From: Vibrio neonatus
GTDB taxonomy: Bacteria > Pseudomonadota > Gammaproteobacteria > Enterobacterales > Vibrionaceae
Direction: 5' to 3'
DNA: 64,000 nt
Assembly (NCBI RefSeq): GCF_024346975.1
Contig: NZ_AP024885.1
Location: 1,302,001-1,366,000, forward strand
Below, piece after piece: positions 46,580 to 49,136 of the stretch (its first letter is position 1; every line of letters starts with the position of its first letter). The notes under the pieces are model-generated. The model worked only from the letters and a program-made list of their open reading frames with translations. It was not told the DNA's origin and made no database searches. The position numbers and the translations under genes are program-made.

Positions 46580-46607
46580 ATTTAACATAATATACATAAT
46601 GCGCACT
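46580..46607 (-). other. dif: Chromosome dimer resolution site dif
   Basis: Read on the minus strand: XerC arm AGTGCGCATTA, centre TGTATA, XerD arm TTATGTTAAAT. This equals the E. coli dif except for two bases in the XerC arm, and the recalled V. cholerae dif1 except for one base in the centre. XerC and XerD resolve chromosome dimers here at division under FtsK control. An insertion sequence lies five bases beyond the XerC arm. Confidence 0.95.
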
Positions 46608-46612
46608 TAAAT
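46608..46612. repeat. Target-site duplication, left copy (TAAAT)
   Basis: TAAAT fills the five bases between the XerC arm of dif and the IS left end; the same five bases follow the IS at 48149-48153. Confidence 0.9.
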
Positions 46613-46638
46613 TGTAAGTCCAAAGTTGTAATGTCACT
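46613..46638 (+). repeat. IS left terminal inverted repeat
   Basis: Begins TGTAAGTCCAAAG and includes AATGTCACT; pairs imperfectly with the right end at 48123-48148. Confidence 0.75.
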
Positions 46639-46718
46639 TTTTATCAAAGTTAAAATGTCACTATAACTGAGTCTTGAACTATCGTTTTAATATCTGACTT
46701 AGTTTTGGAGGCTTAGGA

Positions 46719-48083
46719 ATGTTGATAGCTATGAGTGATAATGAAATCGATCGTCTTAAAGTAATTCAAGATGTATGTGAACGCCGACTCCGCCGTATTG
46801 ATGCGGCTGAACTTTTAAATCTTAGTGTTAGACAAGTTCAACGTCTGATGAATCGGCTACGCCAATATGGCGCAGCCGGTTTGTCTCATAAGTCACGAGG
46901 TAAACCCAGCAATAATAAACTCCCATCGGATTATCGAAGTTATATTTTAGATACTATTACTCAGTATTATCCTGATTTTGGTCCTTCGTTGGCTCATGAA
47001 AAATTATCTGAAATCCATAACCTCCGAGTATCTGTTGAAACTTTACGGCAATGGATGATAGCTGATGGCCTCTGGATCCCTCATTCTCAACGTAAGCCCC
47101 GAGTTTACCAACCACGTTATCGTCGAGATTGCCTTGGTGAACTAATTCAAATTGATGGCTCTCACCATGACTGGTTTGAAGGACGCAGTGATAAGTGTTG
47201 TCTTCTGGTGTTTATTGACGATGCCACTGGTCGCCTAATGAACCTTCGTTTCAGTGAAACTGAGTCTGCATTTGACTATATGCTTGCGACTCGTGAATAC
47301 CTGAATGAACACGGAAAACCAGTTGCGTTCTACAGCGATAAACACTCGATATTTCGTGTAAATCAAGAAAAACATAAACGTGTTGGTGAAACGCAATATG
47401 GCCGTATTCTTAGAGAGCTTGGCATTGAGTTAATATGTGCTAATAGCTCTCAAGCTAAAGGCCGTGTTGAGCGAGCTAATTTGACGCTTCAAGATCGTTT
47501 AGTTAAGGAAATGAGACTACAAGGTATTAATACCATTGAGGAAGCTAATACATGGTTGCCCTACTTTATTGACGACTTTAACCTCCGTTTTAGTAAGCCT
47601 GCAAACTACCCAAAAGACATGCACCGTAAGGTTCGCGAATCTTCTGAAGAACTTGATGATATCTTTAGTTGGCAAGAAACAAGAAAGCTCTCAAATGCAC
47701 TGACATTCCAGTATGACAAGGTTGTTTACCTAATTGAAAACACTGAAGAAAACGCTCGATTGGTTCATGAAACAGTGAAAGTACTCGACTATCCAGATGG
47801 ACATATTGCCATTTGTTATGGCTACAAAAAGCTTAACTTCAAAATCTTCGATAAGTTAGAAAATGTAAATCAAGCTCAAATAGTCGATAACAAACGTTTA
47901 GGCAATGTACTGAAGTTTGCTAAGCAAAAACAAGATGACTTTGATGAACAACAAAAACGCAGTAGAAGTAAAAAATCACCAAGACGAAAAGCCCAACAAC
48001 GAGCTTTAAAAGAACAACTCAGGGCTATTAATCCAGTTCTAACCAATCCTGAGTTATTCAAATCCTCCAATACCAAAGAATAG
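46719..48083 (+). CDS. DDE transposase of the IS1202 family
   Basis: A 454-residue transposase. The N-terminal helix-turn-helix ('RIDAAELLNLSVRQVQRLMNRLRQYG', about 27-51) binds the ends; a second winged region follows to about 120. The DDE/RNase-H core shows D146 in IQIDGSHHDWF, D207 in FYSDKHS and E251 in KGRVERANLTLQDR, so all three acidic residues are intact. The C-terminal tail is very basic (RSRSKKSPRRKAQQR). GGAGG lies seven bases before ATG 46719. It is the only gene of the element. Confidence 0.93.
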   Translation: MLIAMSDNEIDRLKVIQDVCERRLRRIDAAELLNLSVRQVQRLMNRLRQYGAAGLSHKSRGKPSNNKLPSDYRSYILDTITQYYPDFGPSLAHEKLSEIHNLRVSVETLRQWMIADGLWIPHSQRKPRVYQPRYRRDCLGELIQIDGSHHDWFEGRSDKCCLLVFIDDATGRLMNLRFSETESAFDYMLATREYLNEHGKPVAFYSDKHSIFRVNQEKHKRVGETQYGRILRELGIELICANSSQAKGRVERANLTLQDRLVKEMRLQGINTIEEANTWLPYFIDDFNLRFSKPANYPKDMHRKVRESSEELDDIFSWQETRKLSNALTFQYDKVVYLIENTEENARLVHETVKVLDYPDGHIAICYGYKKLNFKIFDKLENVNQAQIVDNKRLGNVLKFAKQKQDDFDEQQKRSRSKKSPRRKAQQRALKEQLRAINPVLTNPELFKSSNTKE

Positions 48084-48122
48084 TCAATCTTTAAAAAGTG
48101 ACATTTCTAATTAGAAAAATAG

Positions 48123-48148
48123 AGAGACATTTTTAAATTGGATTGACA
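48123..48148 (-). repeat. IS right terminal inverted repeat
   Basis: Reversed it reads TGTCAATCCAATTT... with AATGTCTCT, matching the left end at about 17 of 26 positions. Confidence 0.75.
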
Positions 48149-48153
48149 TAAAT
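48149..48153. repeat. Target-site duplication, right copy (TAAAT)
   Basis: Identical to 46608-46612; together they fix both IS ends to the base. Confidence 0.9.
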
Positions 48154-48649: not shown

Positions 48650-49099
48650 TTAGTCGGCTAAGAGTTTATTGAGATCTTCTTTAAGGAGATTCACTTTTTC
48701 ATTGGCTTTTTCACTGCGCTGGGCTTCACTGAGCAAGTATTCAATGGCATCTGATAAGGTACAGCCAAGTTCGTTGGCTCGATAAGAGAGTTTTTCCCAA
48801 ACGCGGTAGTCTAAATCAATGGATTTCTTACGTGTATGAACTTGTTCGGCGTTAAAATGGCGCTTTCGTTTAGCTCGAATCGCTTGTTTGAGCTTGTTAT
48901 CAAGCTCGATGGACATGTGCTTATCAATCCACTCTAAAACTTGAACCGGTTCGTGTTCAATGGCGCGCAGTAGTTCAACCGCGGCAGCATCAGCGCTACT
49001 GTCAATATGGCGAGTGATTGTTTCTCCTTCTTTCCATTTTTTGACCAGGTAGTTCCATTTCCAACCACATTCTAGGTTTTCTAGCTGTTGATATTTCAT
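48650..49099 (-). CDS. matP: Macrodomain Ter protein MatP
   Basis: A 149-residue DNA-binding protein that bridges matS sites and keeps the Ter region compact and at the divisome. It begins MKYQQLENLECGWKWNYLVKKW like E. coli MatP, has the central 'IRAKRKRHFNAEQVHTRKKSIDLDYRVWEKLSYRANELGCTLSDAIEYLL' ribbon-helix-helix block and a C-terminal coiled coil. ATG 49099 is chosen by that alignment over the open frame from 49123. A near-perfect matS lies about 38 bases upstream, and perfect sites lie on both sides of dif. Confidence 0.95.
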   Translation of the reverse strand: MKYQQLENLECGWKWNYLVKKWKEGETITRHIDSSADAAAVELLRAIEHEPVQVLEWIDKHMSIELDNKLKQAIRAKRKRHFNAEQVHTRKKSIDLDYRVWEKLSYRANELGCTLSDAIEYLLSEAQRSEKANEKVNLLKEDLNKLLAD

Positions 49100-49136
49100 G
49101 AGTTTAAAGTTAAGTCCATTCATTTAAAGGCATACA

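Follow-up and report, generated by a model that had tools for sequence, protein, structure and literature searches.

An ISAjo2-group insertion sequence five bases from the XerC arm of dif in Vibrio neonatus, and stacked and partial relatives at the dif sites of other vibrios

How does an insertion sequence (IS) come to lie exactly five bases from the chromosomal dif site of a vibrio, and is this position a property of the element or of the single copy? The question arose from a stretch of 64,000 nucleotides of Vibrio neonatus (contig NZ_AP024885.1, positions 1,302,001 to 1,366,000), referred to here as the window. A 28-bp site at 46580–46607, ATTTAACATAA TATACA TAATGCGCACT, reads in reverse complement as a perfect Vibrio dif1 (22 of 22 arm matches by pattern), and we take it to be dif1. 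It lies on the minus strand and consists of the XerD arm (46580–46590), the spacer (46591–46596) and the XerC arm (46597–46607). The XerC arm abuts the dif-side copy of a 5-bp target duplication, TAAAT (46608–46612, plus strand), which is followed by an IS of 1536 bp (46613–48148, plus strand, TGT...ACA) and by the distal TAAAT (48149–48153, plus strand). An earlier sequence-only reading had marked the interval 46608–48153, which takes in both TAAAT copies, and had described an IS placed 5 bp from the XerC arm and flanked by a TAAAT pair; reading of 46580–48153 showed this to be correct to the base. The cumulative GC skew, computed inside the window, peaks around dif, as expected for the terminus. 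The gene of the terminus-organising protein, matP (48650–49123, minus strand; Pfam MatP, 145 bits), lies close by, some 0.5 kb away from the IS and 2 kb away from dif1.

The left (46613–46638, plus strand) and right (48123–48148, minus strand) terminal inverted repeats of the IS match at 18 of 26 positions. Inward of them lie two further stretches (46644–46662, plus strand; 48097–48115, minus strand), and the second inner site at each end showed 16/19 and 14/19 matches. With a threshold of 60 amino acids, the open reading frames between the ends are an intact transposase gene (46719–48083, plus strand, 454 amino acids) and a frame of 66 amino acids on the other strand. The transposase scored 510 bits against NCBIfam NF033594 ISNCY_2 (cut-off 250), and Pfam located helix-turn-helix (HTH) domains within residues 8–113; residues 18–79 gave a weak sequence match to TnsB structures (E 0.0035). 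The DDE triad, which had been called intact, is present as D146, D207 and E251 and is followed by Q258, seven residues past E. In an alignment of 27 rows, D207, E251 and Q258 were invariant and D146 was found in at least 90%. The spacing of 61/44 is the same as in TnpAjo2 (D142, D203, E247).

The ISAjo2 group of the IS1202 family was described by Harmer, Pong and Hall (2023; PMC10132070). According to that paper, its members are about 1.5 kb long, encode one transposase of 394–507 amino acids and generate target duplications of 3–5 bp; the ends are TGT/ACA with imperfect repeats of 24–26 bp and an inner second site at each end, and the transposase has a DDE triad with Q seven residues past E and a TnsB-like fold (two HTH, RNase H, beta barrel and C-terminal domain). 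At pdif and dif, ISAjo2-type elements sit 5 bp from the XerC site in a single orientation and with 5-bp duplications, which bears out the habit that the sequence-only reading had named, and contact of the transposase with bound XerC was proposed earlier for them (PMC10132070). The V. neonatus element fits these traits in its size and transposase length, in its ends (TGT/ACA, 18/26, inner sites), in Q258 after D146/D207/E251, in its duplication (TAAAT at dif1; TAAAG for a V. halioticoli plasmid copy, see below) and in its placement, the left end and the XerC arm being 5 bp apart in both genomic copies. The transposase family agrees as well, by the NF033594 match and 56.5% identity to a relative on the Acinetobacter plasmid pAV2 (WP_019384184.1). 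Judged by these sequence traits, the element is a new member of the ISAjo2 group and thus of a kind already known, in line with its initial assignment.

The Acinetobacter elements ISAjo2, ISAba71 and ISAba32 resemble the V. neonatus IS in ends, repeats, 5-bp duplication, 61/44 spacing, Q and placement; the latter differs in length (1536 versus 1481–1482 bp), in its Vibrio host and in the occupation of both dif sites of the genome (compared with the available part of PMC10132070). ISKpn21, ISSen13 and other short-duplication members from Enterobacterales likewise occur on the XerC side of dif-like sites at a distance of 5 (or 3) bp, and ISKpn21 has an extra gene that the V. neonatus IS lacks (same source). 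A Klebsiella pneumoniae plasmid relative, 66.8% identical, is by eye also located 5 bp from a dif-like site. The long-duplication elements ISVbsp4 and ISVisp7 have family and genus in common with the V. neonatus IS but differ in their 16-bp duplications and a transposase of about 505 amino acids, and no dif targeting by them was found in the available part of PMC10132070. Proteins 31–34% identical to the transposase, often of about 510 amino acids, occur in other Vibrio genomes among the matches listed, and a whole-genome protein search found none in V. neonatus. Three genomes (G202, G081, G207) carry such distant relatives (about 31% identity, frame of about 510 amino acids) in at least four to six copies each.

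Tn7 TnsB and the Mu transposase are DDE transposases like that of V. neonatus, and transposition of both Tn7 and Mu yields 5-bp duplications. Tn7 also shares the TGT/ACA ends and the presence of several binding sites at each end (PMC10132070). Unlike Tn7 and Mu, the V. neonatus IS has no partner gene of the TnsA, TnsC, TnsD or MuB type. The genes for target choice that accompany a Tn7-like transposase are absent, the transposase frame and the 66-residue frame on the opposite strand being all that was found between the ends.

Whole-genome searches with DNA and with protein each revealed two copies of the IS in V. neonatus. The second copy differs from that in the window at 0 of 1536 bases and is located on the second contig. 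A pattern search with up to three mismatches revealed a single further dif in the genome, and the XerC arm of this site is 5 bp from the second copy. The suggestion that all genomic copies lie 5 bp from dif-like sites thus holds for 2/2 copies, both at dif itself, and the contrary outcome named at the time, further copies scattered at random, was not seen anywhere in the genome. The duplication is a different matter: the TAAAT pair stands at dif1, whereas the second copy is flanked by an unmatched TAGAG at dif and TGAAG outside. This mismatch speaks against a simple unaltered insertion at the second dif, and recombination through the IS or loss of an old flank would account for it. An exact 28-base search of the named genomes with the second-contig dif gave no match.

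Close relatives provided an empty site and further copies. In one relative (G128), a dif1 with two base differences in the XerC arm is followed by a TAAAT and by about 0.2 kb without match to the window, with no IS, and the flanks further out are homologous to the window on both sides. The predicted empty site with a single TAAAT beside dif therefore exists. In V. halioticoli NBRC 102217 (G064), the right part of the IS was found at the dif1 position with 99.65% identity over 573 bp, although the downstream flank is only 90% identical over 1677 bp. CAAAG follows the IS as its 5-mer, and the dif side lies beyond the contig. A V. halioticoli plasmid (AP024877.1) carries the IS with three differences in 1536 bp, 5 bp from the dif-like sequence ATTTAACATAA GATTGA TAATATGAACT and with TAAAG on both sides. 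Near-identical copies at dif or dif-like sites with different 5-mers point to independent insertions. The V. halioticoli plasmid pIAM14596 has a dif-like site (L228, 2362–2389) with a perfect XerD arm and 8/11 matches in the XerC arm.

Transposase matches were present in at least 89 of 227 Vibrio genomes, distant long-duplication relatives included. For placement we read 60 Vibrio loci (40 chosen for long copies and 20 with shorter ones), 79 named loci from a second collection that is largely Photobacterium, Vibrio and Enterobacterales, and L001, L002 and L228. After six edge cases and 13 cases without a recognisable end had been dropped, 138 copies were reduced to 126 distinct ones whose left end could be recognised, 107 of them primary and 19 behind another IS; a few 'primary' copies are really stacked and were missed by the rule (L040 and L071, for instance, each have a second copy of this sort). 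The Vibrio consensus was used for scoring in all genera, non-Vibrio included, and dif arms with at least 16/22 matches stood at exactly 5 bp from 72 of the 107 primary copies. At each of 11 other offsets (−6 to +5, excluding 0) the same score was reached by 0–1 of 107, and at random positions of the same loci by 34 of 214,000. The position is thus beyond chance, and most copies read from Vibrio and Photobacterium follow the 5-bp placement. The single V. neonatus copy had been put forward as a natural test of how the transposase finds Xer sites; with general placement, stacks and remnants the test is broader than one copy.

The alternative that insertions are scattered over the terminus and that only those near dif are seen, by chance or survivorship, may appeal to the probably harmless nature of intergenic insertions there. 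It is contradicted by the single-base register (72/107 versus at most 1/107) and by the lack of IS copies elsewhere in the V. neonatus genome in whole-genome searches, and we regard its probability as negligible. Random scatter was accordingly rejected on the placement test and on the 2/2 genomic copies at dif. At least seven other genomes (G015, G039, G046, G114, G139, G200 and G208) likewise have copies, incomplete in some cases, at the dif of each of two contigs that exceed 1.3 Mb.

The remaining primary copies (35/107) scored below 16/22. By eye, 14 of them have a XerC arm with at least 8/11 matches at 5 bp and an altered spacer or XerD arm, and in 13 of these 14 a stretch resembling the XerD arm follows after a spacer of 7–12 bp. 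In four copies (L053, L040, L261 and L302) the distance to the XerC arm is 4, 6, 6 and 7 bp, respectively, and six copies outside the vibrio family (L252, L253, L259, L273, L276, L277) showed no clear dif. Exact 5-bp duplications flank 21 of the 40 long copies. Among those counted as not exact are L053, where a 4-bp GAAT is common to both sides, and L040 with its 6-bp gap. For the 19/40 without exact duplication, as for the second genomic copy, one has to assume flank loss or recombination at a later time, the latter possibly through the IS. In several copies of this kind (L038, L042, L045, L048, L062, L002 and others), the distal 5-mer resembles the dif-side 5-mer of another genome.

Taken as a whole, the locus is very probably explained by an active or recently active DDE element of the ISAjo2 group that is targeted to a point on the outer side of the XerC arm of dif, 5 bp away from it. 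The 5-bp placement, the orientation, the duplication at dif1, the empty site and the presence of several elements at one landing site are observed; the cut-and-join step is deduced from them. In this step, the DDE transposase would join the ends of the IS across a 5-bp stagger whose position would be set by the XerC side of the Xer site. We consider it rather probable that positioning occurs via XerC, or XerC/XerD, bound at dif. The data are compatible with such a contact, and a serious rival is direct reading of the dif DNA by the transposase without XerC, to which we give a smaller but substantial probability. The high conservation of the XerC arm at 5 bp (at least 9/11 in 71/107 targets) suits DNA reading, and XerC contact is, as far as seen here, a deduction from sequence patterns. 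Some weak sites (L037, L044, L063), whose XerD arm is better preserved than the XerC arm, count against positioning via XerC. On the other hand, the V. neonatus genome contains four perfect XerC-arm 11-mers and the IS is found only at the two inside dif, although the two unoccupied ones are small numbers. Furthermore, either arm and the spacer differ among accepted sites while the distance is mostly constant, which a bound protein complex fits at least equally well. The phage-hybrid sites described below may postdate insertion and hence are not decisive between the two.

The XerC-arm sites with spacers of 7–12 bp are probably hybrid phage attachment sites. Xer-exploiting Vibrio phages (filamentous, IMEX) land at dif without destroying it and integrate inside dif by tyrosine recombination. 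Both they and the V. neonatus IS spare dif, but the IS transposes beside the site. Two records of V. cyclitrophicus filamentous phages (L229, L230) end inside a transposase of the ISAjo2 type, and the end is probably host DNA. In L229, the IS starts 5 bp from a sequence resembling the XerC arm with a 7-bp spacer, and the reading of such sites as hybrid attachment sites is based on its location where a filamentous phage record ends; with the threshold used, no dif-like site was found at the transposase end of L230. In two genomes, G039 (L312) and G081 (L313), about 14.6 kb separate dif from a hybrid site bearing the IS. Among ten proteins scanned from the G039 stretch, one contains the two Pfam domains of viral coat protein P2, presumably that of the PM2 group, which suggests that the L312 element may be a PM2-like prophage using Xer recombination.

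These arrangements also bear on the idea that the IS is brought in by a Xer-mobile module or phage and placed by XerC/XerD recombination instead of transposition. A phage record whose end is such an IS, next to an att-like site (L229), and an element between dif and the IS-bearing site (L312, L313) are what this idea would lead one to expect. Exact 5-bp duplications on both sides (21/40) and the empty site in G128 are, however, signatures of transposition, and we hold Xer-mediated placement to be very improbable in general. For the copy in the window it was rejected, being largely refuted by the TAAAT pair and the G128 empty site.

Because an insertion spares dif and its neighbouring 5 bp, copies stack outwards, and any second insertion has to reuse the same 5-mer. 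Eleven pairs of neighbouring IS were found beside dif, and the 5-mer is shared in nine of them (exceptions L239 and L248). In L036 the order is dif-TGGAG-IS-TGGAG-IS-TGGAG followed by a third left end. Tandem duplication of a copy already in place might also give rise to stacks, and the neighbours in L036 and L047 indeed have identical left ends. In the other 9/11 pairs, however, the left 90 bp are only 40–56% alike (ungapped) and 7 of the 9 share the 5-mer, as expected for different elements at the same place; simple duplication is excluded for these nine pairs and is, for stacks in general, unlikely. As to the order of the copies, the transposase match is longer in the copy nearer dif in nine pairs, longer in the outer copy in one and equal in one. 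Completeness was taken here as how far the tblastn match with the window protein extends; a diverged outer copy can thus seem shorter, and the choice of 40 loci for a long copy favours stacks holding one complete member. The newest copy is likely the one nearest dif. The left end faces dif in both V. neonatus copies and in most relatives read, and dif with its adjacent 5 bp is kept, as seen in the sequence; the landing site is thereby renewed and can be hit again, which gives stacks.

We then considered the fate of old copies. By exact pattern, 86 dif1 sites were found in 138 genomes and all were read (5/86 with less than 1.6 kb downstream). A dif1 was called occupied when a left-end match stood at the right place, and all transposase matches were used for checking one-sided decay. 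A left-end match at the +6 position was detected at 25/86 sites, and a repeat-like end on the XerD side at 0/86. By transposase coverage, the 25 occupied sites comprise 5 full copies, 8 parts starting at the N terminus and 12 with the end only. At the remaining 61 sites there were a fragment of the N-terminal region beside dif (L223), an N-terminal piece about 1.6 kb off (L192) and no C-terminal remnants. Among the matches listed in genomes of at most 10 contigs (identity of at least 45%, V. neonatus set aside), 70 copies consist of 33 full, 29 N-terminal only, 1 C-terminal only and 7 internal; the single C-terminal case also retains residues 1–25 and the left end at dif. Symmetric decay was rejected on the strength of the 29 N-terminal remnants versus one C-terminal and of the absence of C-terminal ones from the 61 sites.

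On a simple reading, old copies would lose the dif-distal end since deletions on the far side are free and those on the near side tend to remove dif, the loss of which would be costly. In 20 of the 29 N-terminal remnants the match ends at residues 106–194, approximately where the HTH domains stop, these being match ends and not mapped breakpoints. One-sided deletion does not explain this clustering. Retention of the N-terminal half as a repressor was considered for it and set aside; several partial matches carry stops (among the matches listed).

In the openly licensed literature (titles and abstract openings) we found no description of ISAjo2-type elements at Vibrio dif, nor of stacks of such elements beside dif or of their one-sided loss, which is not proof of absence in print. 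The available text of PMC10132070 contains neither 'tandem' nor 'truncated', and 'Vibrio' appears there twice, both times in a table row of long-duplication members. Compared with that text, an ISAjo2-group member in a genus without a dif occurrence reported there is new.

A helper-free IS with nearly single-base landing accuracy is uncommon, and the Vibrio and Photobacterium set supplies many natural targets, including some with altered arms and spacers. Taking stacks and remnants together, we lean slightly towards regarding dif as a self-renewing landing pad, beside which unlike IS, along with Xer-using phages, would layer outwards with the newest nearest dif and erode from the far side, leaving an ordered arrival record produced by a transposase that takes bound XerC as its point of reference. 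The flanks of dif gather layered mobile DNA, which matters for the annotation of chromosome termini and for dif-using phages. If the landing-pad reading is true, the dif flank would be an ordered record of mobile-element arrivals.
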